49,542 nt of DNA, taken from the NCBI GenBank assembly GCA_030748895.1, contig JASMLC010000011.1, forward strand, positions 1 through 49,542. The letters are read 5' to 3'. Positions 942 through 49,542 of this stretch are shown here, in pieces. The stretch is from Candidatus Poseidoniia archaeon. GTDB taxonomy: Archaea; Thermoplasmatota; Poseidoniia; MGIII; CG-Epi1. The notes under the pieces are model-generated. The model had not been told where the DNA came from and did no database searches. It worked only from the letters and a program-made list of their open reading frames with translations. The translations under genes were made by a program, and so were the position numbers. Position 1 is the first letter of the stretch; the number at the start of each line of letters is the position of its first letter.

Positions 942-2461
942 AAGAAACGGCCGCCGGAGGCGGCGAGGTGTTCTCCTCACGACTGGGGTTGATTCTGACC
1001 ACCATCGGTGCCGCAGTCGGCACTGGCAATATCTGGCGCTTCCCGCGCGAGGCGGCCGCCAACGGAGGCGGGTCGTTCATGATTGGCTGGTTGCTCTTCC
1101 TCTTCGCGTGGTCGATTCCGCTGCTGATGGCCGAGTTCGCCATCGGCAAGAAGACGCGACTCGGCACCATCGGCTCGATGCGCGACATGGCGGGGCGCAA
1201 CTGGACCTGGATGGGGATGTGGATGGTGTGGGTCGGCGTCGCGGTTGGATTCTACTACGCGGTCGTGATGGGCTGGACCATTCGCTACTTCTGGGTTGCG
1301 CTCTCTGGTGAAATCAACCTCGCGACCGATACTGAGGCGACAATGCTGATGTGGGAGAACTTCATCCACGATTCGCCGCTGGAAGTGGTCATGTTCCAGC
1401 TCATCGCCGTCAGCATCTCGGGGGTAATAGTCTACGGTGGTATCCGCGGGATTGAGCGCGCCAATACCATCCTGATTCCCTGCCTGGTCGGCTTCCTGAT
1501 TATCGCGATGATTTATCCATTTATCCTCAACCCGTCGGGCGCGGCGACCGGCCTGCGCTTCCTCTTCATCCCACAGTGGGACTATTTCTTTAGGGGTGAA
1601 ACCTGGATTCGGGCGCTGACGCAGTCGGCCTGGTCCACTTCGGCCGGCTTCGGGATGGCGATTACCTACGCCGTGGCGATGAAGAAGAAGGAGGACATCG
1701 CGCTCAACGCCTTCCTCACCGGCCTGGGCAATAACTCGGTCTCGCTGATTGCGGGTGTCGCCGTGCTTGGCACCATCTTCGCCATGTCCGAAACCACGGC
1801 CGACGGCCTCGCCGCAGTCGAGGCCGGCTCCTCCGGCTTGACCTTCGTCCACCTGACCGCGCTCTTCGCGGCGATGCCGGCGGGGCGACTGATGGGCGCC
1901 ATATTCTTCCTGGCGATGTCGTTCGCCGCGCTGACGTCGATGATTGCGACTGTCGAGATTGCGGCGCGCAATTTTGTTGATATGGGCTGGGAGCGCAACG
2001 AGGCGGTGAAGTACATCTGCGTCGCCATCGCACTCTGCGGGTTGCCTTCAGCTTACAGCCTCGAGTTCCTTGACAACCAGGACTTCGTCTGGGGCACCGG
2101 GCTGATTGTCTCAGGGCTGATGGTGGCGGTTGTCGTGATGCGGTTCGGCACCAGCGAATTCCGCGAGACTTTCATCAACACCGAATACAGTGACCTCTAC
2201 ATCGGCAAGTGGTGGGAATACATCATCCGCTACGCTTTCCCCCTCGAGTTCGCGCTAGTCTTCGGCTTCTTCATCTACGAGAAATTGCAGGATAGCTCGT
2301 CTTCGCCGATTGGCGGCATGGACCTCGGGCTCTTCACAATCCTGACGATGGTGGTGCAATGGCTGATTATCATTTCCCTCTTCGCCTTCGGCTTCAACGA
2401 CCGCGTCGCCGATAAAATCAAGGCCGGGCCGCTCACGGTCGCCGAGGCTGAGGAAGTCTAG
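938..2461 (+). CDS. Sodium-dependent amino-acid symporter of the NSS (SNF) family
   Basis: The 507-residue protein has the first-helix signature of neurotransmitter:sodium symporters (GAAVGTGNIWRFP near residues 24-36, followed by NGGGSF), where Na+ and the substrate are bound in known members. About 11-12 hydrophobic helices follow, the usual size and topology for prokaryotic members. These proteins import amino acids with Na+ across the cytoplasmic membrane. The TTG start overlaps the stop of the upstream peptidase gene (TTGA), suggesting translational coupling. The C-terminus converges with and overlaps by a few bases the stop of the minus-strand HEAT/zinc-ribbon gene. The exact substrate cannot be told from sequence. 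Confidence 0.93.
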   Translation: MKETAAGGGEVFSSRLGLILTTIGAAVGTGNIWRFPREAAANGGGSFMIGWLLFLFAWSIPLLMAEFAIGKKTRLGTIGSMRDMAGRNWTWMGMWMVWVGVAVGFYYAVVMGWTIRYFWVALSGEINLATDTEATMLMWENFIHDSPLEVVMFQLIAVSISGVIVYGGIRGIERANTILIPCLVGFLIIAMIYPFILNPSGAATGLRFLFIPQWDYFFRGETWIRALTQSAWSTSAGFGMAITYAVAMKKKEDIALNAFLTGLGNNSVSLIAGVAVLGTIFAMSETTADGLAAVEAGSSGLTFVHLTALFAAMPAGRLMGAIFFLAMSFAALTSMIATVEIAARNFVDMGWERNEAVKYICVAIALCGLPSAYSLEFLDNQDFVWGTGLIVSGLMVAVVVMRFGTSEFRETFINTEYSDLYIGKWWEYIIRYAFPLEFALVFGFFIYEKLQDSSSSPIGGMDLGLFTILTMVVQWLIIISLFAFGFNDRVADKIKAGPLTVAEAEEV

Positions 2462-4551
2462 GCCAGGATTACCGGCGCGCCGCAGCCGCCGCAGAACTTC
2501 TGCCCGGCCTCCAGCGCACCGCCGCACTGCCGGCAGCTAGTGGGCGCCTCCGGTTTGGCTGGCGTCGCGCTACCGCAGCCGCCGCAGAACTTCTGGTTCA
2601 GCGAGAGCGGTGAATTGCATTCGAGGCAGTGGTAGCCGGTATCGCTGCGCTCGACTCGCTCGCGCAGCCGGACGCCACACTTGCCGCAAATGCGGAAGTC
2701 GGACGGCAGGCGTGCACCGCAATTGTCGCAGTCGATGTGGAAGTGGCGAGTGACGACAGAGGTCTGCGTCTCCGGCACTACGGTCGCGCCGACTGCCGAG
2801 GCAAAGAGCTCGCGCGACTCGAATTCGGTCGAGTCATTCACCTCGACGATATCCTGTTTCTGCTGGTGGAAATTAGCTCCCTCGAAGCTGTGATAGACCA
2901 CGTCCACCGTCAGCGGTACCAGCCCCTTGCCTTTCGGGTAGACCTCGATTTCCAGCGTGCGCTTCTCGGTCGCCTCCATGCCGTGCAACAGCGTCTGTCC
3001 ACGCGTTGCAAAGCTGTCGCCGAAATCCAGCGTTATCTGCCGCGCGACCGCGCCGCCGATGTTTTCCAGCTCCAGCGACAGGACGCTCCAGTCGTCGGGA
3101 ACCAGCGGGCTCTCGACCCGCCCTCGCAGGACGATATCGGGCCGTGATTCGACCGCCTGCTGCTGTGAGAGCAGGAGCGCCTGCTCTGCCTTCTCATGCG
3201 CTTCCTTGTAGCGCTGCTTTTCCAAAAGCTTCTCCGCCTCCGCCAGCAACGCTTCGGCCGCGGCGATCGAGACGCCTTTGTGGGAAACCGACTGGATAGT
3301 TGACTCGGCGCGGGTCAATGCCGCCTTCACCCGGTCACTCTCCTTCTCAGCACGCGCCGCGATATCTTCGGCGCGTGTGGAATAGTCCATGCATTTCGGG
3401 TAGTCACCGCGCCCGTACGCTTTCTCGGCGTCCGCCAGCAACTTATCTGCTTGACCGGTTGCGACGCCGAAGTTCTGCGCCGAATGGAGGACGCCGCGCG
3501 CTGATTCGAGCGCTGCGGACGCCTTCTGGAGGGCATCGTAGTCGAGCGAGGAGACCTTGATTTCCTCCATAGCCTTCGCCGCCGCGGTCCGCACAAGGTC
3601 GTCACCGTCGTTGAGCGCGTGCACCAGCGATGGCACCGCGTCCTTGATGAGGCTCATTTTCTTGCGCCCCATGATTCCCAGCAGCAGCGCCGCCTGTTCG
3701 CGAATCTCCCAGCGCTGGTGGCCAAGGTCATGCGCGAGGTGGCGCACCGCCGGGGCGAACAGTCCCGGGTCGCGCTCAGCCAGCGGCTGCGCGGTCAGGA
3801 TGGCGTGCAGTCTCAGTTCCGGGTCGACCTTGCGTGCGGTCAGCGGCCGCAGCAGCAGCCGCGGCACCGCCGCGACGCCCGCCGCGCCGGCCGAAATCAG
3901 CATCAGCCCCGCCTGTTTCTGGATAGCAGAATTGCGGTGCCCGAGCAGCTTCACCAGCCGCGGTGCCGCGCGGGCGAGCGCTGCCGGCTGTTTTTCGGCC
4001 ACCTGTTCCAGTAGTGCCAGCGCGTTCCGGACGGTCGCCGGCTTCCTCGAGCCGAGCTGCTTCGCCAGCTGCGCCGCTACCGCCGTGGGGGCGCGGCGCC
4101 CGAGGTCAGTAATCAGCTGCAACAGCGGTGCCTGGACTCCCGGCTGGGGGTTGTCCAGCCGCTCGACCAGCTTGGCCAGCTGTGGCAGCACCGCCTTAGG
4201 TTCCTGGCGGGCGACCTTGTCGAGCAGCTCCAGCGCAGTGGTGCGATTGTCCATGCGGGTGTCCTGCACCAGGCCCGCCAGCGGTCCGCTCGCTTTCGCG
4301 AAGCCTTTGGGATGGAGGTCGAACAGGTGCTGCAGCAGCAGCACCGCCTGATGGCGCACTGCGGGATTATCGTCGGAAAGCAGCTTCGTGACTTGCGGCA
4401 GGAACTTGGGAACCAGCCGCGGCACGAAGTGGTCATGCAGCTGGCGTACGAGGGTGATACGCCGGTCCGCCGAGGCTTCGGCGATAGACTTCAACCGCCG
4501 TTCAATCTGGGTTGCTTCATGAGCAGCCCTGATATCTTCGCCAACACCCAT
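2458..4551 (-). CDS. HEAT-repeat / helical-repeat / zinc-ribbon scaffold protein in the dnaK operon
   Basis: The start is taken at the ATG at 4551 (MGVGEDIRAAHEA); an in-frame ATG further upstream lies inside dnaK. The 697-residue product has four parts. Residues about 1-350 are HEAT-type helical repeats (LLQHLFDLHP, LLDKVARQEP, LLEQVAEKQP and similar). About 360-480 are TPR-like or coiled helices (LLADAEKAYGRGDYPKCMDY, LLAEAEKLLEKQRYKEAHEK). About 490-590 form a CARDB/Ig-like beta domain. The end carries three zinc ribbons (CDNC..CGKC, CLEC..CGGC, CRQC..CGGC). No signal peptide or membrane span is seen. It lies 52 bases downstream of dnaK on the same strand, with a gggag/ctccc hairpin at 4552-4566 just before the start. 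Function unknown; a protein-binding scaffold linked to the chaperone system is an inference. Confidence 0.8.
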   Translation of the reverse strand: MGVGEDIRAAHEATQIERRLKSIAEASADRRITLVRQLHDHFVPRLVPKFLPQVTKLLSDDNPAVRHQAVLLLQHLFDLHPKGFAKASGPLAGLVQDTRMDNRTTALELLDKVARQEPKAVLPQLAKLVERLDNPQPGVQAPLLQLITDLGRRAPTAVAAQLAKQLGSRKPATVRNALALLEQVAEKQPAALARAAPRLVKLLGHRNSAIQKQAGLMLISAGAAGVAAVPRLLLRPLTARKVDPELRLHAILTAQPLAERDPGLFAPAVRHLAHDLGHQRWEIREQAALLLGIMGRKKMSLIKDAVPSLVHALNDGDDLVRTAAAKAMEEIKVSSLDYDALQKASAALESARGVLHSAQNFGVATGQADKLLADAEKAYGRGDYPKCMDYSTRAEDIAARAEKESDRVKAALTRAESTIQSVSHKGVSIAAAEALLAEAEKLLEKQRYKEAHEKAEQALLLSQQQAVESRPDIVLRGRVESPLVPDDWSVLSLELENIGGAVARQITLDFGDSFATRGQTLLHGMEATEKRTLEIEVYPKGKGLVPLTVDVVYHSFEGANFHQQKQDIVEVNDSTEFESRELFASAVGATVVPETQTSVVTRHFHIDCDNCGARLPSDFRICGKCGVRLRERVERSDTGYHCLECNSPLSLNQKFCGGCGSATPAKPEAPTSCRQCGGALEAGQKFCGGCGAPVILA

Positions 4552-4603
4552 GGGAGTTACTCTCCCGCCATAGGACGCACTGCAGGATATAGCGTTTGCC
4601 CAG

Positions 4604-6460
4604 CTATTTCTCGTCGACTTCTTCGTAGTCAACGTCGACTACGTTCTCGTCGGCGGCAGGTGTGTCGCCCTCACCGCCGGGAGCCTGCTGTGCAGCCTCC
4701 TCGGCCGCCTGCTGGTACATCTGCTGGCCGACCACCTGCGAAGCGGTCATGTACGCCTCGCTAGCTGCCTTCAGCGCGTCGAGGTCGTCGCCCCGGATGG
4801 CCTCCTCGAGAGCAGGCTTCGCCGCCTCGATGCCCTTGCGGGTCTCCTCGTCGACCTTGTCGCCCAGTTCCTTGAGCGACTTCTCGGTGGCGTAAATCAG
4901 CGATTCGCCCTGGTTGCGCGTCTCGACGAGCTCGCGCAGTTTCCTGTCCTCCTCGGCGTGCGCTTCCCCCTCCTTGACCTTGGCCTCGATTTCCTCGTCG
5001 CTCAGGTTTGACTTGGCCTTGATTTCGATTTTCTGCTCGTTCCCGGTGCCCAAATCCTTGGCGCTGACGTTCAGGATACCGTTGCGGTCGATGTCGAACT
5101 TGACCTCAACCTGTGGTACGCCGCGCGGCGCGGGGGGGATGCCGGTGAGCATGAACTTGCCGAGCGTCGTGTTCTGCCCCGCCATAGTGCGTTCGCCCTG
5201 CAGGATGTGGATTTCGACGCTGGGCTGGTTGTCGGCCGCGGTCGAAAAGGTGTTCTGCTTGCCAGTAGGAATGGTGGTGTTGCGCTCGATGAGCGGCGTC
5301 ATCACGCCCCCCTCGGTCTCGATGCCGAGCGTCAGCGGCGTCACGTCAAGCAGCAGCACGTCCTTGACGTCGCCCGCAATCACGCCGCCCTGCAGGGCCG
5401 CCCCCATCGCGACGCACTGCATCGGGTCGATGCCGCTCTCCGCCTTGCGGCCGATGATTTTCTCGAACCGTTCGCGGACAATCGGCATGCGCGTCGGCCC
5501 GCCCACCAGCAGCACGCGGTCGACGTCGCCCGGCTTGAGCTTGGCGTCCTTGAACGCCTGCTTGATGGGCTTGTCGCACTTGGCGAGCACCGGCTCGACC
5601 AGTTTCTGCAGCTTTGCCCGCGTCAGGTCCACTTCCAGGTGCTTGGGACCAGCCGAATCAGCCCAGATGTAAGGGAGATTGATGGTCGCCTTGACCGTGC
5701 TGGAAAGCTCGATTTTCGCTTTCTCGCCTGCGTCGCGCAGCCGCTGGAACGCAGCGGGGTCCTGCCGCAGGTCGACGCCGTTATCGGCCTTGAAATTCTC
5801 GGCCAGCCAGTCGATAATCGCGTCGTCCATATCGGTCCCGCCAAGGAGGGTGTCTCCCGACGTGGAGAGCACTTCGAAAACGCCTTCGGCCATCTCCATG
5901 ATAGTGACGTCGAAAGTGCCGCCGCCCAGGTCCAGTACGGCGACCTTGTGTTCGCCCTCACGGTCCTGGTCGAGGCCGTACGCCAGCGCAGCCGCGGTCG
6001 GCTCGTTGATGATGCGCTCGACCTCGAGCCCCGCGATATGGCCGGCGTCCTTGGTCGCCTGCCGCTGGTTATCGTTGAAGTAGGCGGGGACCGTGATTAC
6101 GGCCTTGCTGATTTCCTGTCCCAGATGCGCCTCGGCGTCAGCCTTGATTTTCTGCAGAATCATCGCCGAAATTTCCTCGGGCGAGTATTTCTTCTTGCCT
6201 ATCTTGACGCGCTCGTCGGTTCCCATCTTGCGCTTGATGCGCATGATGGTGCGCTCGGGGTTGAGGACCGCCTGCCGCTTGGCCAGGTCGCCCACCAGCC
6301 GCTCGCCGTCCCTGGTGAAGGCGACGACCGACGGGAACATCTTGCCGCCGAAGGTCGACCCCTCGGCCGAGGGGATGATGGTCGGGCGGCCGCCCTCAAG
6401 GTGCGCCGCTTCCGAATTCGTGGTTCCGAGGTCTATGCCGATTATGATTTCCTTAGCCAT
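4604..6460 (-). CDS. dnaK: Chaperone DnaK (Hsp70)
   Basis: A full-length 618-residue Hsp70. The N-terminal ATPase domain shows GIDLGTTNS near residue 9, the phosphate-binding stretch [13 protein letters not shown] and the LVGGPTRMP motif. The substrate-binding domain follows ([14 protein letters not shown], then a helical lid) and ends in an acidic tail ([10 protein letters not shown]), close to the bacterial pattern. It folds or disaggregates client proteins using ATP with GrpE as exchange factor. Archaeal dnaK genes are generally held to be acquired from bacteria, which fits. It starts 2 bases after the grpE stop. No dnaJ follows; the next gene is a HEAT/zinc-ribbon protein. Confidence 0.98.
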
Positions 6461-25892: not shown

Positions 25893-28800
25893 GTGCGTAA
25901 TATGCACAATACCAATCTGAACACGCCTGTAAGGGTCGCGCTGCTCTTTGCAGTGGGGCTAGCCATGCTCGTATTCATGCCATCAGCAGAAGCGAGCGAG
26001 TCATTCACAGTCGGAGTCACACCATCTACCCAAAATGGCGAGCCCGATGAAACACTGACCTACACAATTACTGTAGAGAACACTGGTGATAATGATGACT
26101 CCTATAACCTCACTATAACAAGTACAACCAGGGCGGGCTGGAATGAGTATATCCTTCCTACATCACTTGATGTCAAGGACGGGCAGTCTGAGACCGCCAC
26201 ACTCTATGTCGAAATTGGCGACCGGGATGATGCTCCGGCCGACATCACTGAATTCGTTACCTTCAAGACGGAATCTATTACGCTTGATGCCGGTGCCACG
26301 AGTAAGTCAGTGACTGCGAAGGTGGACCAGGTCTATGGCAACACCCTCACGATTAATGGTACAACCACGCAGAATGCGGACCCGGATGCCACTGTGACCT
26401 TCGCCGTCAAGGTGTTCAATGATGAAGGCAATGGCAAAGATACCATCACCTTCAGTCAGACCAGCTCCGGGACGGATGATTGGTCGTTTGTGTTTCCTGG
26501 AAGTGTCACGCTTGACAAGGATGAGTCAACCGAGATATCTTTTTCGGCAACTCCAGATATCAATGCTCTTGCCGGGCTGAAGAGTATTAGCCTGTTCGCC
26601 ACGTCCGAGGATAGCAGTACAGCGACATCCGTTACGGTTACCGTGCGCGTGAATAAGCTGCCTGACCTCAACGTGGTCAAGGTTGGCTCCAGCGCCGAGG
26701 ATGTTGAAGCTGGCAAGCGAGTCGATTACTCCTTCTCAGTGACTAACAAGGGCAATGCCGTCGATTCTTACGACCTCGAAATCGAGAACGGCAGCTGGTA
26801 CGACAAGGGCTGGGAAGCTTCGCTTGACAGTGATGAAATCAGCAGCCTGGACGTAGACGAGAGCATCAACCTGACCGATGTACTGGTCATCAAGGCGCCC
26901 ACGAATGCTGTGGCCGATGAGGAGGTAACTATCAGGGTCAAGGTCTCCTCGCAGGAAAACACCTCGGTCTACAAGACCTACACCTCTCGCACCACGGTCC
27001 TGCAAGACTTCGAGCCGAAATTGAAGGTGAGTGGGGGGGATACCCAGTCGGCGCCACCGGACGAGGAGGTCTCCTACACTATCAACATTACCAATGATGG
27101 TAACGGCGAGGATGACATCACCCTCTCGCTCCACGGCGGAAACGCTACTTGGGGTACCCTCGCCGAGTCTTCCTTCACCCTTGCAGCCGGCGAGAGCGAC
27201 GAGACTACCCTGCGCGTCACTGCTCCCGACGGGACACTGGCGCAGAACGGCTATTCGATTACTGTCCGGGCTACCTCCGAGGATACTACTACTAAGGCGA
27301 ACCGCGCTGTTTTCCTGAACGTCCAGCAGGTGTACGAGGTCTCCGTTTCCGTTTCAGGTGACTCGACCAAGAATGGAGACCCTGGAGCATCTGTATCGTA
27401 CACAATCACGGTCAAGAACAAGGGCAACGGCGATGATACCGTCAACCTTGCCCTGGAGGGCGACAACCCAGACTGGGGTTCAATAGTCGAGGATGTAGAT
27501 CTCGAGGCTGGGGAGTCTACTAGTGTTAATCTGTCCGTCAACATCGATGAGGAGGCTAACTTTGGCGACTATACCATTATCGTCAACGGCTCTTCCGACG
27601 AGGCATCCTCCGATGTCTACGATACTACCATAGTGACTGTGACGGTAAACAAGGAATACCAGGTTGATTTGCTGATTAACGAGGCCCAGAAGAGCGGCGA
27701 CGCCGACAGCTCAGTTGTGTATGATATTATTGTCAAGAACAAGGGCACCGGCGACGACACCATCCGTCTTTCAGTTGACGAGTGGCCTACGGGCTGGACG
27801 GCCAACTTCAATGAGACCGAGATCGACATCGGTCCCGGTAAGGATGCACCGGTGAACCTGACGGTCGCGATCAAGGAGAAGGAGGACAACCAGGCTTTCT
27901 ACGTCAATATCACCGCTATCTCGGTTGGTGCCAAGGACGAGGATGTTGATGTCAATGCAACTGCTTCCACGATTACCACAGTCAACCAGTACTACGAGTT
28001 CCGCATGACCTCCGTGCTGACCTACACCAAGGCGGACCCGGAGGACACCTTCACTGTTGACATCCTGCTTGACAACAAGGGCACTGGCGATGACACGATT
28101 GACCTAGAGGTCACCGGCCCCGAAAATGCGACCGGCTGGGTAACTGACATAACTCCCTCAGTCGAAGTTCCAGAGGGAGAAAACCGGACCGTAACCCTCA
28201 CTGTGACTGTTTCGGAAGACGCGGTCAAGGATTCCTACTACATCACGGTTACTGGGGTCTCGGCTGACGAGGCTTCCGAGACGCACGACGTAACCATCCA
28301 GGTTGATGTCAGCCAGCGCTACGAGGTGCAGATGCTGCCCCGTACGGAAACAAAGGCGGCCGAGGCCAACGACATACTGGAATTTTCGATTACCGTCAAG
28401 AACAAGGGCACTGGCGAGGACACCTTCGACCTTGAACTGGGCGGCGAGGTCGGTGTCAGCTGGGGCTCGCTCTCCAACGTCAGCCTCACGATTCCCGCTG
28501 GTGGTTCGGCGGATGTAATCCTAACGGTCGAGGTGCCAGCCGATGCGCAGCCCAAGACCGAGGGTGCCTACGAAATCCTGGTGAACGCTACTTCGGTCGA
28601 CAACACGACTGCTGTCGACTCGGTTGTACGTTATATAGACGTCGAGAAGAAAGAACTCGAAGTTGAGATAACAGCTGATTCATCCACTTCACAGGCTGAA
28701 CCGGGCGACATCGCCTATTTCGATCTCAATGTCAAGAACGTGGGTAACGATGTTGATACAGTCGTGCTGACCTTCCAAAGTGACCTCCGCAAATGGGCTA

Positions 28801-31800
28801 CCTTTGTGGAGACCGGGACCAATACGCATTCGTTGAACCTGACAGTGAACCAGCAGAAGACAGTCCGTGTCCAGGTATCTCTTCCGGAGTACAACGTTGC
28901 TACTGGCGCAAATAAGACTGCTCTGGAATCCAGCACTTATCAGGTAATAGCCAAGGCGACCACGGGTGATGGCAGCCAGTCGGAGATAGTCTCTCTCAGT
29001 ACCAGTATCCAGCAAATCTATGGTGCTGAGCTCACCGCGCAGGGCGCCAGCACTGTCATCACCTATCCCTCAACCGAGACAAGTGCTAGTGAACGCCAGG
29101 AAAAATTCAGTTTCGATGTCAAGAACCTGGGTAACAAAGTGGACACAATTGATGTGGAGGTGAGCGGTTCCGGCTCTACATTCCCTGACGATTGGGAGGC
29201 TTCCGTTCATGGATCTTCAAGCTGCTCCGGCACCTTCACTGGTTCGGTGGGTGCAAGCAATTCGAAGAAGGTCTACCTCTGTATCACGCCCGACGTGGAG
29301 ACTGAACCGGGTAACTACACCGTCTTTATCGAGGCCAAGGCACGCAACGGTGCTGACGAAGCGGTCGTCACCAACGTGACGGTCGAGGTACGTGACCCGA
29401 CCCGTAGTGTCACTCTTTCCGCGGACGAGCCGAGCCTGAATCTCGCACCCGAGGTAGGTGATACCGAGAAGAATACGGCCCGTTTCAAGGTGGTAATCAC
29501 GAACAGTGGCAGCCACGATGACAAGTTCATTGCTGAGCTGGACGATGTCCTGGGCACTGGCTGGAGCACTGACTTCTATACCAAGAACACGGCTTCTAGC
29601 AGTGACGAGTGGTCTTCCTCCGGTGAGGAAATCGAAGATGGCCAGACCGACGACCTATGGTTCATTGTCGAGGTTGATCCGGATGAGGTTGATGAGGGCA
29701 ACTACACAATGTCGGTTACGGTCAAGAACTTTGAAGAGGATATTTCACAGTCCGTTACCCTGACACTGCAGATTAGTGCCCCGCAGCGCGGCCTGACAGC
29801 GACCGTGATTGACCCTTCCAAGGAGATATCTCCTGAGTACAAGGCGTCTGGCAGTTCCACGAAGAACATGGTCAAGTTCAAGGTCAAGCTGGAGAACAGC
29901 GGCACGCACCCGGACAGTTTCATCCCCGAAGTCGAGTCAACGCTTGATGATGACTGGGAGGTTAGTTTCTACCAGGACAGCTCCAAGACACAGCCCTGGT
30001 CAACTTCACAGGGCGTTGAAATCGAGTCAGACGAGCTGGACGATTTGTGGATCTTCGTAGACGTTGACGATGGGGCTGACGAGGGCAATTACACCCTCAC
30101 TATCTCGGTCCGTAACACGGAGGATGATCCCAGTGCACGGCAGGAGTTCGAGTTGACCGTTGAAGTCCAGCGCTCCGACATAACCCTGGCCGCCAGCGAC
30201 ATCCAGCTGGAGGCTGACGGCGTCGTTGGCAATGCCTCCGCTATCAAGGATGGCGACACAGTAACCGTACTTGTCGAGGTCACCAACAGTGGTATCGCTG
30301 ACGCGGATGACGTGCAGGTGGAGATTTTCTACTACCCCAAGAAGGTACCGGAAGATCAGAATGATATCGATGACTTGATTAACAAGGGCTTCGAGCTGGA
30401 CGAGGGCAAGAACACCTACATCTATTCACTCTACAAGAAGAGCACCAACCTGAAGGCGGGCGCGACCAAGTCGCTTGCATCAGACGACTGGATCATTGAG
30501 GGTGGCGAGTGGTATGTGGAGGTACGCGTCGATTACGACGAGGATGACGTCGACAACGGCGAAATTCTCGAGACCAACGAGAACAACAACGACGCACGCT
30601 ACTCCGAACTGCTGCGCATCAAGCCCGACCTCGCCATAAGCGACCTGCGCGTTGACTCGCGCTTCGCGGGCCTCACGTCCAAGACGCCCAACGTCGACGA
30701 TCAGGTCACCTTCACGGCGACCGTGGTCAACAAGGGCGCCGCTGACGTCGATAATGCGCGGCTGTACATTACAGCTGACAGCAGCGACGAAAGTGGTGTT
30801 ATCCTCCAGGACCGTGGTACCAAAGACCACGTCGAGTTCAGCATCGATGCTGGCGCGACTGAGACCATCCGCTTCCGCTGGAAGGCGGTGAGCGGTGAGT
30901 GGACTACCTTCCGTGCTGAGGTAAACCCGAGCTGTAGCGACGTTAGCATCAACATTTTTGACTGCGAGCAGCAGGGTGACGGCGCCGGTACCGAGACCGA
31001 TCACCTGTACGACGAGCTGAAGCGATACAGCGATAACATCTATCCGGTGGGCGGCGACGCGTTCCAGCAGGATGGCGCTGAGGTCATGTTCGAAATCCTG
31101 CCCGATTTCTTCATCAAGGAAGTGAAGATGGACCCGCGCGTACCGGAAGTGGGTGACGATGTCGAGATTACGGTGGTAATCGAGAACAAGGGCAATGCCG
31201 ACTGGAAGACTGGCAGTCAGCTGCTTTCGGTGGTTTTCGAAGACGGTGTTGGTGGCACAATCACTACGCAGGTGAGCGGCGACATCAATGAGGGTGACGA
31301 GATTGAAGTCAAGTTCACCTGGAAATTCCCCGACGAGGACAAGGACTCACTGCTCCTCACCTATGAACTTGATGTTGGCAGTGGCAACTGGGAGATAGAC
31401 CAGACTGACAGTTCCAATGACGAATTTGAAGAGAACGTCGCAGTCATCCAGCCCGCAGTAGTGGGCGAGATTGCTGCCCTGGATGTCTTCAGCCGTGAAC
31501 TGGTGCGCGGCACCGGCTTCAAGGTCTACCACTTCGTGGCGCTGATGCTTGTCGCCGTCTTGGCGATCGCGGTGCCGATAGTTGTTTCCCGCCGCATGCG
31601 TCGGGGAGCTGCTGTGGTACCCGAGGAAGATGATGCAGCGCCGGAAGCGGCCGAGGCACCTCCAGTCAAGATTGCGCTCGCGATTCAGTCAGCGGTTGAT
31701 GGCAAGACCGCGAACGTGAAGGTACCCTCTAACATGCCAGTTGAGCGACTGGTCCAGAATTGCGTTGGAAAGTTCCCGCTCCCGCACGCCAACTTTGCGG

Positions 31801-31898
31801 TACATGTGAACGGCGAGGCGGTCGATTCAGGCCTCTCGCTAGCTGACGCAGGTCTTGTAGATGGCTCCGAAATCCAGCTGGTTTCGCTCGAAGAGTGA
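25893..31898 (+). CDS. Giant single-pass surface protein with about 15 Ig-like repeats and a cytoplasmic ubiquitin-like tail
   Basis: The 2001-residue protein starts with a signal peptide (VRVALLFAVGLAMLVFMPSAEA). About 15 beta-sandwich repeats of 90-120 residues follow. The first 12 carry the NEW3/COG1470-type motif (V-x-N-x-G-x-x-D-D, e.g. ITVKNKGNGDDTVNLA); the last three are CARDB-like (VEVTNSGIADADDVQVE, ATVVNKGAADVDNARL, VVIENKGNADW). A membrane span (HFVALMLVAVLAIAVPIVV, about 1880-1898) and RRMRR stop-transfer follow. The last ~79 residues form a cytoplasmic beta-grasp-like domain (PVKIALAIQSAVDGKTANVK ... LADAGLVDGSEIQLV) resembling ubiquitin/YukD folds. Many N-x-S/T sites fit a glycosylated surface protein. 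The N-terminal two thirds use visibly more A/T third positions than neighbours. The GTG start fits the TATA spacing. Role (adhesion, S-layer-like or receptor) is inferred. Confidence 0.88.
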   Translation: MRNMHNTNLNTPVRVALLFAVGLAMLVFMPSAEASESFTVGVTPSTQNGEPDETLTYTITVENTGDNDDSYNLTITSTTRAGWNEYILPTSLDVKDGQSETATLYVEIGDRDDAPADITEFVTFKTESITLDAGATSKSVTAKVDQVYGNTLTINGTTTQNADPDATVTFAVKVFNDEGNGKDTITFSQTSSGTDDWSFVFPGSVTLDKDESTEISFSATPDINALAGLKSISLFATSEDSSTATSVTVTVRVNKLPDLNVVKVGSSAEDVEAGKRVDYSFSVTNKGNAVDSYDLEIENGSWYDKGWEASLDSDEISSLDVDESINLTDVLVIKAPTNAVADEEVTIRVKVSSQENTSVYKTYTSRTTVLQDFEPKLKVSGGDTQSAPPDEEVSYTINITNDGNGEDDITLSLHGGNATWGTLAESSFTLAAGESDETTLRVTAPDGTLAQNGYSITVRATSEDTTTKANRAVFLNVQQVYEVSVSVSGDSTKNGDPGASVSYTITVKNKGNGDDTVNLALEGDNPDWGSIVEDVDLEAGESTSVNLSVNIDEEANFGDYTIIVNGSSDEASSDVYDTTIVTVTVNKEYQVDLLINEAQKSGDADSSVVYDIIVKNKGTGDDTIRLSVDEWPTGWTANFNETEIDIGPGKDAPVNLTVAIKEKEDNQAFYVNITAISVGAKDEDVDVNATASTITTVNQYYEFRMTSVLTYTKADPEDTFTVDILLDNKGTGDDTIDLEVTGPENATGWVTDITPSVEVPEGENRTVTLTVTVSEDAVKDSYYITVTGVSADEASETHDVTIQVDVSQRYEVQMLPRTETKAAEANDILEFSITVKNKGTGEDTFDLELGGEVGVSWGSLSNVSLTIPAGGSADVILTVEVPADAQPKTEGAYEILVNATSVDNTTAVDSVVRYIDVEKKELEVEITADSSTSQAEPGDIAYFDLNVKNVGNDVDTVVLTFQSDLRKWATFVETGTNTHSLNLTVNQQKTVRVQVSLPEYNVATGANKTALESSTYQVIAKATTGDGSQSEIVSLSTSIQQIYGAELTAQGASTVITYPSTETSASERQEKFSFDVKNLGNKVDTIDVEVSGSGSTFPDDWEASVHGSSSCSGTFTGSVGASNSKKVYLCITPDVETEPGNYTVFIEAKARNGADEAVVTNVTVEVRDPTRSVTLSADEPSLNLAPEVGDTEKNTARFKVVITNSGSHDDKFIAELDDVLGTGWSTDFYTKNTASSSDEWSSSGEEIEDGQTDDLWFIVEVDPDEVDEGNYTMSVTVKNFEEDISQSVTLTLQISAPQRGLTATVIDPSKEISPEYKASGSSTKNMVKFKVKLENSGTHPDSFIPEVESTLDDDWEVSFYQDSSKTQPWSTSQGVEIESDELDDLWIFVDVDDGADEGNYTLTISVRNTEDDPSARQEFELTVEVQRSDITLAASDIQLEADGVVGNASAIKDGDTVTVLVEVTNSGIADADDVQVEIFYYPKKVPEDQNDIDDLINKGFELDEGKNTYIYSLYKKSTNLKAGATKSLASDDWIIEGGEWYVEVRVDYDEDDVDNGEILETNENNNDARYSELLRIKPDLAISDLRVDSRFAGLTSKTPNVDDQVTFTATVVNKGAADVDNARLYITADSSDESGVILQDRGTKDHVEFSIDAGATETIRFRWKAVSGEWTTFRAEVNPSCSDVSINIFDCEQQGDGAGTETDHLYDELKRYSDNIYPVGGDAFQQDGAEVMFEILPDFFIKEVKMDPRVPEVGDDVEITVVIENKGNADWKTGSQLLSVVFEDGVGGTITTQVSGDINEGDEIEVKFTWKFPDEDKDSLLLTYELDVGSGNWEIDQTDSSNDEFEENVAVIQPAVVGEIAALDVFSRELVRGTGFKVYHFVALMLVAVLAIAVPIVVSRRMRRGAAVVPEEDDAAPEAAEAPPVKIALAIQSAVDGKTANVKVPSNMPVERLVQNCVGKFPLPHANFAVHVNGEAVDSGLSLADAGLVDGSEIQLVSLEE
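27411..28411 (+). repeat. DNA-level tandem repeats inside the giant surface-protein gene
   Basis: A near-identical segment, gtcaagaacaagggca followed by (a/c)cggcga(t/c)ga, occurs at 27411, 27732 and 28395, with a diverged copy at 28071, spaced about 320-340 bases. It encodes the V-K-N-K-G-x-G-D-D core of successive Ig-like repeats. More diverged copies occur near 26740, 28731, 29121 and 31180. The central copies are closest at base level, which suggests recent duplication or homogenisation. Confidence 0.7.
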
Positions 31899-44970: not shown

Positions 44971-45030
44971 GGAGGAGAAGAATGGTGCTGGGTTTGCTAT
45001 GTTCCGTCATTCAACCTCGTGATTAGAAAA

Positions 45031-46095
45031 CTAACTCTTAGGAAGAAAACCTCTATTCTTCATATCCTCCAATACACCGTGCGCTTTCCTGAAAGATTTA
45101 GCGAGGTTCCCCTCAATTTTCACTTTGATGTGCCCTCGGTTCCAGTCCTCCACTTTCTTTCCGTGCCAAATCGAATAAAGCTCGACCCCACCAAGCCGTG
45201 TCATGCCAAAGACCATTGTCCCGTAGTAAATGATTCTTGAAACGAAATCTAGGGGAATGGGATTGTTTTTCAGATGTTTTTGGAGCTCCGGGATACTGTA
45301 TTCCACATACTGTGTTTTGAATGATTTCTGAACTGCCATCTCGACGAAATTCTTGTCTGCGCTGAACAATACGATTTCCGCGTTTCGATCCCCTTCGAAC
45401 TTCTCGTAGCCTTTTATGATCTCCAAATCGTCCTTTTCTGACGGGGCTTCGTGAAACACGTAGTTCTCTTTCATATTTTTTATCTCGGCCATTCCAATCC
45501 GGTGCAGACGTGCACTCAGGGTGGGCTGGTAGAGGAAGTTGGCTGCTTGGGGAAAACCAGTCGCCAACTCTTCCACTTTCTGGAACTTGTACTTGTAGTC
45601 CATCCCCTGCATCAATTCCTCGGTTACACCTCCTGCAACCACATGCCCAATCGAATTATCCAGTTTGTGGAGTTTAAGAAAATTTATGATGTTGGAATGG
45701 AAGGAACGCCGGAGGACACTGGTGTCATAACCAACCCACAAAGGTTTGCCCCCATGAAATGTATTTCTGCTCTGCGCAGGAGACTTTAGAAAATTCTCGG
45801 CTTTTGTCGGGGGAGGGAGGCCCGCGCAGAAAAATGCCTCCATGAACTGGTAGTAGGTTGGTATATCTGACTTGCATCCTGGATTTTTTGAGATAAAGTC
45901 CCTTAACTTTGCATCATACTTATTGCGAGGGATTATCTTTGCCTTGAGGTTTCTGAGGGCAAATGTCGCCACCTTCCCAATCGGTGGAAAGAACCATTCA
46001 ATGGGAGTTTTTTTCTCATAGAGAAGATTGGTAACCAGCTGTAATTCACGGATATTGCAGTTTGGATTCCTCCACAGGGTCTTATCTTTTTTCAT
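45031..46095 (-). CDS. PIN-like nuclease, candidate effector paired with a CARF-like protein
   Basis: The 354-residue protein shows the four acidic positions of a PIN domain in its middle: GYDTSVLRR (Asp about 124), GGVTEELMQ (Glu about 159-160), EGDRNAEIV (Asp about 236) and LFSADKNFVEMA (Asp about 247, the usual last PIN motif). An N-terminal part of about 115 residues and a C-terminal part of about 90 residues are not recognised. PIN domains are metal-dependent ribonucleases. Its ATG overlaps the stop of the CARF-like gene (ATGA), so the two are co-translated. I infer that the CARF-like partner controls this nuclease. Family assignment is by motif only. Confidence 0.65.
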   Translation of the reverse strand: MKKDKTLWRNPNCNIRELQLVTNLLYEKKTPIEWFFPPIGKVATFALRNLKAKIIPRNKYDAKLRDFISKNPGCKSDIPTYYQFMEAFFCAGLPPPTKAENFLKSPAQSRNTFHGGKPLWVGYDTSVLRRSFHSNIINFLKLHKLDNSIGHVVAGGVTEELMQGMDYKYKFQKVEELATGFPQAANFLYQPTLSARLHRIGMAEIKNMKENYVFHEAPSEKDDLEIIKGYEKFEGDRNAEIVLFSADKNFVEMAVQKSFKTQYVEYSIPELQKHLKNNPIPLDFVSRIIYYGTMVFGMTRLGGVELYSIWHGKKVEDWNRGHIKVKIEGNLAKSFRKAHGVLEDMKNRGFLPKS

Positions 46096-46589
46096 TCCCC
46101 CAGAATCTCCTTCTTCAGATCATACAACGTCATGAGGTTTGATGGAACCATGGGAAAGGGCTGTCCCGTATGGTTCTTCAGGCCCTTTACATGCAGATAG
46201 TAGATTCTGTCTGCCCTATGTTTCACGTCCGCCCCCACACCCATGTACATTGCAAATGCGGACATGTACTTTCTCCCAGGCGTCATATCAATTACAACGG
46301 TATGGCCTTTTGTCTTTTCTTCATGGACTATTGATTCCAATTTTTTGGCCAAGTTAGCGAATTCAGTCTCAACAACATCATGAACAATTGGTGTTTCTTG
46401 ACTACCGTATCTGTTGAGTACGCACTGGTATCCCTTCAGTGCGGCGGCCAGATATCCCTTTTCCTTCACCATTTCGTCGGCGATCAAATGAACACGGTCA
46501 GGAATGAACCCCTCTCTCATTATCGCAGCCCAGAGAGTATTGACCCCAGCAAACTTGGAGGTACTCACATTCGTAATCCACACTTTCAT
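46092..46589 (-). CDS. Stand-alone CARF-like (Rossmann) ligand-sensor protein
   Basis: The 165-residue protein resembles one CARF domain: an N-terminal strand and loop (KVWITNVSTSKFAGVNTLWA), FIPDRVHLIADE, and the second ligand-binding motif VVIDMTPGRKYMSAFA (residues about 98-113), comparable with the D-x-T-P-G-R/T-K-x-M-S signature of CRISPR-associated Rossmann fold proteins. There is no fused effector domain; the effector may be the PIN-like protein encoded immediately downstream in an overlapping frame. Known CARF proteins bind cyclic oligoadenylates made by type III CRISPR Cas10; no such gene is in this window, so the ligand is open. Confidence 0.7.
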   Translation of the reverse strand: MKVWITNVSTSKFAGVNTLWAAIMREGFIPDRVHLIADEMVKEKGYLAAALKGYQCVLNRYGSQETPIVHDVVETEFANLAKKLESIVHEEKTKGHTVVIDMTPGRKYMSAFAMYMGVGADVKHRADRIYYLHVKGLKNHTGQPFPMVPSNLMTLYDLKKEILGE

Positions 46590-46611
46590 GAATTCGCAGA
46601 CGGTTTCAATC

Positions 46612-46619
46612 TATATAAT
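46612..46619 (-). promoter_or_regulatory. TATA box of the CARF-PIN operon
   Basis: The box tatataat lies 23-30 bases before the ATG of the CARF-like gene on the minus strand, the same spacing as the boxes of the viperin and CARF-wHTH genes. It shows that the CARF-PIN pair has its own promoter within the 57-base gap after the CARF-wHTH gene. Confidence 0.65.
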
Positions 46620-46646
46620 CATTTCTAAGTTATTGATTGAATCACA

Positions 46647-47294
46647 CTAAAATGCACGGAGCGCTACTTTTCCAAGAGGTGTGAGACGTATGAGGGTGGC
46701 TCTCCCATCGCTTTCATGGGCCATTATGTTCAGGTATCCATATCCTTCAAGACTCTTGCAGTTGTAATTGACCTTCTGGATACTTATGTTCAAGGTATTG
46801 TGGATCTGGGTTTGAGTCTGAGGTCTTTTATCGACAGATTTAACAATTTTTCTCTGGATTTCAGTCAGATCCTGAGGCGGAATTTTTGGCGGTGTGAGTT
46901 CGATGCTTTTTTCATCATCCTCTCTAACGTAGTAGGCAATCGCACCAATATAATTAGCACCGACAAGAGCCGCGCAAGACATCACCTTCGTTCCCCCTGT
47001 CACATTTACGTAAAAATTTGCTTTGGGTTCGATTTTCCGTTCTTTCCCATGGATCTCAATTATTTTTCCGATGATATCAGTGAAATTAAAGGGGTCTATC
47101 TCTATTCCTACTACCTCCAGACGCCTGAATAACTTTAGTTCATTGCTAATCTCTCGAATGGCTTTTTCGTGCGAACACAGAAGATACAATCTAGAGATGT
47201 TCTGATAGTTCTGAAACGTTTCGATTACAGGCCCCTTCGAGATGGCTTCTCCCTTCGCATGCCCTACTGTGACGAAATGAATATTCAAACTCAT
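46647..47294 (-). CDS. CARF-wHTH transcription regulator, divergent from viperin
   Basis: The 215-residue protein joins an N-terminal CARF-like Rossmann domain (IHFVTVGHAKGEAISKGPV; then FYVNVTGGTKVMSCAALVGA, with T-G-G-T-K at about 99-103) to a C-terminal winged helix (residues about 142-215: LTEIQRKIVKSVDKRPQTQT ... SLEGYGYLNIM). This is the layout of Csa3- and DUF6293-type regulators, which change DNA binding when a nucleotide ligand is bound. It is divergent from the viperin gene and shares its promoter region, so it is the likely regulator of the island. Ligand unknown. Confidence 0.82.
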   Translation of the reverse strand: MSLNIHFVTVGHAKGEAISKGPVIETFQNYQNISRLYLLCSHEKAIREISNELKLFRRLEVVGIEIDPFNFTDIIGKIIEIHGKERKIEPKANFYVNVTGGTKVMSCAALVGANYIGAIAYYVREDDEKSIELTPPKIPPQDLTEIQRKIVKSVDKRPQTQTQIHNTLNISIQKVNYNCKSLEGYGYLNIMAHESDGRATLIRLTPLGKVALRAF

Positions 47295-47346
47295 ATTAGG
47301 AATATCCTACAACAAGTATTAATAGTTTTCGGGGCAGGTCTAATTC
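47295..47346. promoter_or_regulatory. Symmetric divergent promoter and candidate CARF-wHTH operator
   Basis: The self-complementary box tattaata (47317-47324) lies exactly 23 bases from the start codon of each divergent gene (CARF-wHTH at 47294, viperin at 47347), so one box can serve both. A 13-base inverted repeat, tagga-ata-tccta (47297-47309), lies next to the CARF-wHTH start and upstream of the box as seen from viperin. That position could repress the regulator gene while acting as an upstream site for viperin. Confidence 0.6.
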
Positions 47347-48309
47347 ATGGAAGATGCTGCTGTCCTATCACAAGCCCAAGTACCGTGGGTCCAATCTCCC
47401 TCGCAAGGCTATCACAACAAGCGTCCCTCGCCCGAAGAGCCGCTATCCGTAAACTGGACAATCACCACTATATGCAATTATGAGTGCCGGTTTTGTTTTG
47501 CACGGTTTCCAGAGATCAAGATTTCGCTCTCTGCGGAAGAGATGCGACAAGTACCTCCAATGTTGAGAGATGCTGGATGCGATAAGTTGACCTTTGTCGG
47601 CGGTGAGCCGACACTGAACCGGAACCTCCCGGATCTGCTGAGGATATCCAAGGAAGCTGGATTGACAACTATGATTGTCACCAATGGCACTATACTGAAT
47701 GAACACTTTATGAATGAGAACCATGAATTTATCGATTGGCTCTCACTCAGTGTTGACAGCCAATTCGAGCAGATTGAAAAAGAACTAGGGCGAGGGACAG
47801 GAGAGCATGTTCAGCAAACCGTTGACAATGCAAAGCTTGCCCGTAAATTTGGTGTCCGGTTGAAGATGAACTCAGTGATCACCAAACTGAATTACATGGA
47901 AGACATGTCGAAGTTCATACTTGAACTCAAACCGGAACGCTGGAAGGTTTTCCAGGTGCTGGAAATTGATGGACAGAACGACCTTAGCGTCGGACCGCTT
48001 CTTCTGAAGGATGATGAATTCGAAATATTCAAGTGTAAGCACCGTTCTCTTATTAAGAAAGGATTGGATGTGGTATTCGAGGACAATGACCTAATGCGTG
48101 GTTCATATGTGATGCTAGACTCTCTCGGACGGTTCTTTAACAACCATGAAGGCGGACACGACTATGGTCCTTCCATATTCGACGTGGGTGTCTCCAAGGC
48201 TCTCGAATATGTCCGGTGGGATGTCAAAAAGTTCGTTCGGCGCGGCGGACTATATGGATGGCGTGCTGGCCCGAAGTGCGACACGCGATGCGGGAGTGTG
48301 AATGGCTAA
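47347..48309 (+). CDS. Viperin (prokaryotic viperin, radical-SAM ddhNTP synthase)
   Basis: The 320-residue protein has the radical-SAM cluster motif CNYECRFC (C43, C47, C50) preceded by SVNWTITTI, and the GGEP motif (about 85-88). The rest follows vertebrate viperin closely: WLSLSVDS, KMNSVITKLNYMEDM, RWKVFQVLEIDGQN, GSYVMLDSLGRFFNN and the C-terminal SIFDVGVSKALEYVRWD with RRGGLYGW. Viperins remove water from CTP or other NTPs to give 3'-deoxy-3',4'-didehydro-NTPs, chain terminators for viral polymerases. The ATG is 23-30 bases after a TATA box (leaderless). Its last codons overlap the start of a helicase gene. No N-terminal amphipathic membrane helix like that of animal viperin is seen. Identification is firm; NTP preference is not known. 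Confidence 0.95.
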   Translation: MEDAAVLSQAQVPWVQSPSQGYHNKRPSPEEPLSVNWTITTICNYECRFCFARFPEIKISLSAEEMRQVPPMLRDAGCDKLTFVGGEPTLNRNLPDLLRISKEAGLTTMIVTNGTILNEHFMNENHEFIDWLSLSVDSQFEQIEKELGRGTGEHVQQTVDNAKLARKFGVRLKMNSVITKLNYMEDMSKFILELKPERWKVFQVLEIDGQNDLSVGPLLLKDDEFEIFKCKHRSLIKKGLDVVFEDNDLMRGSYVMLDSLGRFFNNHEGGHDYGPSIFDVGVSKALEYVRWDVKKFVRRGGLYGWRAGPKCDTRCGSVNG

Positions 48310-49542
48310 ATTACACTACGCGAATCTGGGTAAGGAAATACCTGAGAAAACCATGGCAGACGCTTTCTATCGTTTAAACCCCATCAAACAGTATATTATG
48401 AGAGCGATAGAAACCATGGAAAATCTCCAATATAAATTGAAATGGGAACTAGTACTTGGGGTTAAACCTCCTGAAAAAGTAGATAGGCTAAGTCACCGCC
48501 CATTATCACAGAGTGAAAAACATAACCACGGCGAAATTACCACTAATAGGATTCACATATATTCGGATGACCCCCTTACCTCACAAAAAGTTTTCGATGA
48601 TTTTCACGAAGCCAAATATATACTAGATAGTTCCGGCAAACAAACATGGAAAAACTCTATAGAAGTGCTTGATACAGAACCCAAAGAGAATGTCTTGGTG
48701 GTTAACAGAATTCCAAAAACCCCACATATATACTTGCGCCCAAACACCCATGGTTTAACTCGACAAATGCGGGCCCTTCACTTCTTACAGCATTCGCCAA
48801 GGAAGGAATACCTGCCACTCATAACACTCACAGAGAATGAATACTCTGCAAAGTGGCCCCAGTTTAAAAAAACTAAAATTTCAAAGTGGGAAGTGCTCAC
48901 GGATAGAAGCAGACCGGGCACTGATTTGCAACGCGAATTCGTTCAAATCGCACTGCCCACGCCTAAAACTGGAACGCCGGACTTCGCAATACTGGAAGGG
49001 CCTCCCGGCTCTGGGAAAACAACAGCAATCTGCGAACTTGTTATCCAGGCAATCAAGAACGGTTTGAGGGTCCTGCTCTGCGCCTCCACCCACATAGCTG
49101 TTGACAATGTCCTTGAGAGATTGAAAGACCAGAAGGAAATTATCGCGGTGCGAATCGGGCTCGATATCGGCCGTGTGAAAAAGTCTGTGAGAGGGCTGAC
49201 TTTCCAGAGGCGCAAGGACACAGAGAGAGAATCCATCATCGACTATCTGAATAAACTGGGTGGGCGGAGGAACGATTCACAAGAATATCTGCTCAAGGCA
49301 TTAAGGTCGGACGAAGGTGACAATGTCATCACCAAAATCATTCTGGATTCAGCCAATCTGGTCTGCGGCACGACAATGGGTTTTCTCCAGCATCCGGACA
49401 TCAAAGCCGCGAGAGATCCGGAACCACTTTATGACATCATGATCCTTGATGAAAGCAGCAAGACCACGTTCCAGGAGTTTCTTGTTCCGGCACTTTATGC
49501 GAAGCGCTGGATACTATCCGGCGACGTGAAACAGTTATCGCC
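48302..49542 (+). CDS. SF1 (UPF1/DNA2-like) helicase, 3' end outside window
   Basis: The frame from the ATG at 48302 stays open to the last base, 413 codons, so the gene is truncated by the window. Residues 1-210 have no recognised domain. Then come Walker A GPPGSGKTT (about 233-241), motif Ia LLCASTHIAVDNVLERL, the Walker B box MILDESSKT (about 383) and motif III ILSGDVKQLSP, the order and wording of UPF1-type superfamily 1B helicases. Motifs IV-VI and any fused nuclease would be beyond the window. It starts 8 bases before the viperin stop, so it is translationally coupled to viperin. UPF1-like helicases are common in defense islands. Confidence 0.88.
   Translation, partial: MAKLHYANLGKEIPEKTMADAFYRLNPIKQYIMRAIETMENLQYKLKWELVLGVKPPEKVDRLSHRPLSQSEKHNHGEITTNRIHIYSDDPLTSQKVFDDFHEAKYILDSSGKQTWKNSIEVLDTEPKENVLVVNRIPKTPHIYLRPNTHGLTRQMRALHFLQHSPRKEYLPLITLTENEYSAKWPQFKKTKISKWEVLTDRSRPGTDLQREFVQIALPTPKTGTPDFAILEGPPGSGKTTAICELVIQAIKNGLRVLLCASTHIAVDNVLERLKDQKEIIAVRIGLDIGRVKKSVRGLTFQRRKDTERESIIDYLNKLGGRRNDSQEYLLKALRSDEGDNVITKIILDSANLVCGTTMGFLQHPDIKAARDPEPLYDIMILDESSKTTFQEFLVPALYAKRWILSGDVKQLS

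Follow-up and report, generated by a model that had tools for sequence, protein, structure and literature searches.

Viperin linked with a CARF-wHTH regulator and an SF1 helicase, beside a split CARF-PIN pair, in a Poseidoniia archaeon

Overview

In the genome of a marine archaeon of the class Poseidoniia (phylum Thermoplasmatota), viperin is linked physically, and recurrently across the class, with a CARF-wHTH transcription factor and a helicase, and this linkage is not the product of chance; the parts belong to known families, and it is their arrangement that is new. Viperin is a conserved antiviral enzyme, common to prokaryotes and animals, and the activation of the prokaryotic viperins has, to our knowledge, been little studied. 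We give roughly even odds (a probability of about 0.5) to the reading that the locus combines a viperin/helicase defence operon under a CARF switch with a neighbouring PIN RNase that a CARF sensor triggers. Since viperin repeatedly accompanies CARF regulators in genomes where no Cas10 was detected, a new alarm molecule may be at work, a proposition that can be tested directly.

Gene layout and insertion site

The window, i.e. the whole stretch of DNA that was analysed (49,542 nucleotides), is the entire contig C11 of a metagenome-assembled genome (MAG). The final ~4.5 kb of the contig consist of five genes in two divergent arms, with CARF-wHTH, CARF and PIN genes in the minus arm and viperin and SF1 helicase genes in the plus arm. 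The features are as follows.

44971..45030, no strand: left junction of island and core genome (GC drop; sister genomes share the gene before it, which other genes follow there)
45031..46095, minus strand: PIN-domain nuclease, 354 aa, putative effector half of a split pair (PADLOC PDLC01973, CARF_m1-PIN, positions 214-455, E 1.2e-25)
46092..46589, minus strand: CARF protein, 165 aa, putative sensor half of the pair (PADLOC CARF_m1, 1.9e-33; CARF_m1-PIN positions 1-153)
46611..46618, minus strand: candidate TATA box of the CARF/PIN operon (CTATATAA, plus-strand letters; sequence reading)
46647..47294, minus strand: CARF-wHTH transcription factor, 215 aa (PADLOC CARF3 PDLC01866, 1.7e-33)
47297..47309, no strand: TAGGA-N3-TCCTA inverted repeat, weak operator candidate (the only one in the window)
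47317..47324, no strand: palindromic TATA-like box TATTAATA, candidate shared divergent promoter (sequence inspection)
47347..48309, plus strand: viperin-family radical SAM enzyme, 320 aa (NF038283, 260.7 bits)
48302..49542, plus strand: SF1 (UPF1/COG1112-like) helicase, N-terminal 413 aa (AAA_11, 3.3e-26; PADLOC MkoA, 4.9e-38)

All five genes that the earlier note had listed are present, their identities being established here through matches to curated models, and its description of an island of distinct base composition, with a head-to-head arrangement and a start just after position 44970, is borne out. The two arms are separated by a 52-bp divergent intergenic region; the GC content of the island is 0.44-0.46, that of the remaining window mostly 0.58-0.73, with a single stretch at 0.52-0.59, and GC3 is about 0.45-0.55 in the island versus 0.82 for the gene preceding it. 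The second GC dip corresponds to one 2001-codon ORF (25893-31898) with a signal-like start, which looks like a large secreted protein rather than an island.

The gene preceding the island is found at 79-90% identity in four of five sister genomes, where it is followed by other genes, which by eye look like sugar-biosynthesis genes in G391 (GC 0.45-0.51) and a membrane protein in G390. Because the same flank gene is followed by different genes in the sister genomes, insertions at this site are taken to vary between genomes, which makes a misjoin unlikely. Indeed, that the low-GC end derives from another organism through an assembly or binning artefact, as might be read from the abrupt GC change at 45.0 kb and the terminal position on a contig of the MAG, is scarcely credible: the GC break falls between genes, the flank gene of G391 likewise precedes low-GC genes, and the island would be one continuous stretch even if misjoined. 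The sister genomes yielded neither viperin, at the threshold used, nor a CARF-PIN pair. We propose that the island sits in a hotspot of foreign genes and was gained by horizontal transfer.

Viperin and its recurrent partners

The viperin of the window exceeds the cut-off of the curated viperin model (180 bits for NF038283) and matches solved viperins with E 3e-52 and, less significantly, 1e-42; its CNYECRFC motif, the radical SAM CxxxCxxC cluster motif, has cysteines (C43, C47 and C50) that are invariant across 11 relatives. A kinase is a known partner gene of prokaryotic viperin, and a kinase-like gene adjoins viperin in two relatives (L072 and L043). In a third (L046), a 974-aa TPR protein is encoded directly upstream of viperin (2266-6113), which fits the archaea-only viperin-TPR type already described (PMC12988326). 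The description of viperin as normally a stand-alone effector, given in the earlier note, is not quite right, partners of both kinds being known.

Profile searches of the class detected viperin in 11 of 340 genomes, while the helicase and CARF-wHTH profiles matched 5 and 7, respectively, of 165 genomes. The helicase lies near downstream of viperin at four of the 11 class viperin loci, directly adjoining it in the window's genome (G000) and G577 and separated by one intervening gene in G478 and G232; the distance between viperin and a CARF-wHTH gene is about 1 kb or less in three genomes (G000, G577 and G478) and 6 kb in a fourth (G533). Viperin, CARF-wHTH and helicase thus occur together in G577 and G478, which belong to two other families of the class. 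Furthermore, three genomes of group f17 of the same phylum (G145, G075 and G337; loci L047, L048 and L051), probably methanogen-like organisms in which no Cas10 was detected, carry viperin in close company with a CARF-wHTH gene and a HEPN gene of the LA2681 type, and the CARF-wHTH protein of G075 belongs to the window's own PADLOC family. At L071 and L072 the CARF-wHTH gene is upstream of viperin and co-directional rather than divergent; none was found at L045, a locus with viperin and helicase, and CARF-wHTH genes are also found without viperin.

CARF-linked viperins are scattered over three to four positions in the viperin tree (4 state changes), and a single clade is rejected both for them (AU p 1.65e-72) and for the helicase-linked viperins (p 0.014). 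In a Poisson estimate that allows for 50-fold defence clustering, the linkage stays significant (helicase, P 7e-6; CARF-wHTH, P 6e-4), with the bias that viperin neighbours went into the building of the profiles. None of the partners occurs at the 22 viperin loci examined from plasmids and IMG/VR contigs; the viral contigs contain viperin relatives, with partners at 0 of 16 loci examined, and gave no match in the helicase and CARF-wHTH searches; the phage records contain no viperin.

These observations bear on whether a hypervariable site simply gathered unrelated defence genes, the linkage reflecting no more than the general clustering of defence functions. The different foreign genes at the insertion site in sister genomes, the uniqueness of the five-gene set and the lack of a visible helicase at 7 of the 11 class viperin loci (in two of which viperin lies at a contig end, so that partners may be missed) would agree with such a chance assembly. 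It is nevertheless quite improbable, since both pairings, viperin/CARF-wHTH and viperin/helicase, keep a conserved arrangement and are met again on different branches of the viperin tree, the partners are absent from the plasmid and IMG/VR viperin loci, and the linkage estimates survive strong corrections for clustering. According to the earlier note, one system would be supported if three or more of the five genes turned up together again in independent lineages, and chance adjacency would speak against it. Viperin, CARF-wHTH and helicase do recur in this way (G577 and G478), and chance adjacency is rejected for this core; the complete set, however, was seen nowhere but in the window, and only here does the CARF/PIN pair adjoin viperin.

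The CARF-wHTH regulator and the divergent promoter

The CARF-wHTH protein matches Pfam HFX_2341_N, Card1 CARF and HTH_27, all above cut-off, and its predicted structure matches both CARF proteins with bound cA4 or cA6 (Cam1, the ring nuclease Sis0811, Csm6 and Card1) and MarR winged-helix proteins. In the spacer between this gene and viperin, the centre of the self-complementary TATTAATA lies 26.5 nt from the start codons of both genes, as would be expected of an archaeal TATA box when the transcripts are leaderless. It is the sole copy in the 49.5-kb window, with 0.0014 expected in the 52-bp spacer for a motif that was picked post hoc. Its position suggests that CARF-wHTH and viperin may use a common bidirectional promoter. 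The inverted repeat at 47297-47309 was considered as an operator and is not significant alone, because repeats with 5-bp arms are common in shuffles (42% of shuffled spacers contain one).

The split CARF/PIN pair

The CARF protein scores 30.6 bits with Pfam Cas_NE0113 (cut-off 23) and conserves a D-x-T-x-G-R-K motif. Matches of its profile to TAL effectors proved to be a repeat artefact, each single stretch being insignificant. The PIN gene has no Pfam match of its own, and its relatives match Pfam PIN_4; its acids D124, E160, D223 and D247 are invariant in eight relatives. The core of the predicted structure (residues about 117-265) has PIN domains as best matches and weakly matches the CARF-PIN structure SiRe_0806 with cA4, the protein outside the core being mostly modelled at low confidence. 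The two genes overlap by ATGA (46092-46095), and one PADLOC model, PDLC01973, spans both in order (1-153 and 214-455). To judge from these matches, CARF and PIN, which the earlier note correctly found and counted as two genes, are better regarded as two halves of a known effector, CARF_m1-PIN, than as unrelated genes; they do not form a fused single polypeptide. A single CARF-PIN gene broken by a frameshift was ruled out, because the split pair recurs in Thermoproteota and haloarchaea.

The split CARF-PIN is a genuine recurring pair. In Thermoproteota, split pairs occur alongside fused versions and are mostly followed by a HAD gene; the CARF-PIN-HAD set lies in a partly syntenic chromosomal neighbourhood (L117-L122, L126), and perhaps, therefore, has a function beyond defence. 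In nine haloarchaeal plasmids (L187, L188, L189, L192-L197), adjacent CARF and PIN genes, mostly with a 1-nt overlap, sit in defence islands with BREX, DISARM or UvrD/PD-(D/E)XK (helicase/nuclease) genes. In four haloarchaeal plasmids a HEAT-repeat and ADP-ribosylglycohydrolase set is found upstream of CARF/PIN.

Among the examples examined, the window alone has CARF/PIN beside viperin, and the tie is unproven because it rests on one locus. The island might hold two separate systems, a CARF-wHTH/CARF/PIN RNase cassette and a viperin-helicase(-PLD) operon, with the spacer and the insertion site in common but not the signal. Such a division, which we consider possible and rather doubtful, would agree with the recurrence of the pair in Thermoproteota and beside defence genes on haloarchaeal plasmids, with what appears to be a TATA box of its own (the CTATATAA box, ~25 nt ahead of the CARF start codon), and with the Haloferax plasmid L193, where a Csa3-type CARF-wHTH gene, CARF and PIN follow in the window's order without viperin. 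The L193 regulator, however, resembles that of the window in the wHTH part only and represents one of nine haloarchaeal contexts, whereas the window's CARF-wHTH family is repeatedly found beside viperin without PIN.

The helicase and the PLD module

The helicase start at 48302 falls within the last codons of viperin. The gene is cut off where contig C11, and with it the window, ends; the remainder, sought on the other contigs of the MAG, is on none of them. An unbroken version is seen at L072, in the order CARF-wHTH, a 110-aa protein, viperin, a kinase-like protein, helicase, a 451-aa protein and a PLD nuclease. A MkoB-like PLD gene downstream is thus seen in L072 and, weakly, in L045, whereas the window's contig ends inside the helicase; related helicase/PLD sets are present in two genomes that gave no viperin match (G315 and G354).

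The best plasmid relatives of the window helicase are from Vibrio and Pontibrevibacter (47-48% identity over about 300 aa). There (L184 and L186; L185) the operon consists of the helicase, an unknown protein of 366-369 aa, PLD and, at its end, an RtcR_PspF1-type CARF-AAA-HTH regulator of the sigma-54 type (4.5e-209 and 9.1e-126). This four-gene operon is a candidate for a CARF-controlled bacterial defence module, and a CARF transcription factor is, therefore, found at the helicase/PLD module in both domains, with differing architectures. The Vibrio operon was found in no E. coli genome at megablast sensitivity. A Klebsiella plasmid (L191) carries a remnant of the module that keeps PLD and CARF-AAA-HTH, with insertion-sequence genes just upstream; no helicase was found on it.

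Proposed mechanism and source of the signal

In the preferred reading of a CARF-switched viperin/helicase operon beside a CARF-triggered RNase, the CARF-wHTH protein of a resting cell would sit at the shared divergent promoter and repress both itself and the operon of viperin and helicase. On infection, a small nucleotide ligand would accumulate and bind to the CARF domain of the regulator; viperin would then make 3'-deoxy-3',4'-didehydro (ddh) nucleotides that halt viral transcription or replication, and the co-transcribed SF1 helicase would attack viral nucleic acid, probably with a PLD nuclease encoded past the contig end. The same or a similar ligand would activate the adjacent CARF/PIN pair, whose RNase would slow or kill the infected cell. 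In this scheme we infer repression as the sign of the regulation, ligand binding, the co-activation of the two arms, the enzyme activities and the presence of a PLD partner here.

CARF sensors normally receive their ligand from the CRISPR machinery. The CARF fold is present in the window according to both curated models and predicted structure, while a search with a sole model (PF22335) found the Cas10 palm domain neither in the 97%-complete genome G000 nor in 17 further viperin-bearing genomes of the phylum, three single-contig ones among them. As no Cas10 was detected, a type III CRISPR system of the same cell is an improbable source of the CARF ligand, and a chemical alarm signal apart from Cas10 may control viperin. 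That viperin's own product is the ligand was judged unlikely, because the known ligands of CARF proteins are cyclic oligonucleotides, and a ddh-nucleotide, having no 3'-OH, could not be built into one.

More tentatively, and at well below even odds, the data might reflect an archaeal, Cas10-independent immunity based on nucleotide second messengers, in which CARF factors turn viperin on and that one signal also activates helicase/PLD modules and RNases under CARF control (PIN here, HEPN in its stead in f17), the bacteria running the same module under a CARF sigma-54 activator.

Comparison with known systems

The window viperin is akin to the prokaryotic viperins (pVips) in passing the curated model and in having relatives with kinase-like or TPR partners; it differs in that its own partners are a CARF-wHTH regulator and an SF1 helicase, of which no description as viperin partners was found in the literature examined. 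A full-text search for viperin with CARF gave no paper that, by its title or match counts, points to such a link, key CARF-classification and viperin papers being outside its reach.

The regulator resembles the Csa3-type factors in length and in the order of CARF and winged helix, but belongs to PADLOC CARF3 PDLC01866 and, with 24.5 bits, does not reach the cut-off of the Csa3 model (60.2 for TIGR01884). In Csa3, cA4 bound the protein while binding to the DNA tested was unchanged (PMC8844856). The ancillary CARF effectors of type III CRISPR share the CARF fold, the difference being that no Cas10 was detected in the window's genome. From the CARF-PIN effectors (CARF_m1-PIN; SiRe_0806 with cA4, PDB 9jxx), whose model is matched in order by the two halves and whose catalytic PIN acids are conserved, the pair differs in consisting of two overlapping genes, with viperin as a neighbour, in a genome in which no Cas10 was detected.

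The helicase matches the core of MkoA of Mokosh type I (MkoA/MkoB) over positions 622-828 (PDLC03920), and in relatives a PLD nuclease is encoded close downstream. It differs in that the match is confined to the helicase part of MkoA (residues 1-211 of the window helicase have no match in MkoA or Pfam), in the viperin upstream and, in the relatives, in the extra unknown gene between helicase and PLD. Finally, the Vibrio/Pontibrevibacter operon lacks viperin and has a CARF activator of the sigma-54 type instead of CARF-wHTH, but it contains the nearest plasmid kin of the window helicase and, at the same locus, a CARF transcription factor.
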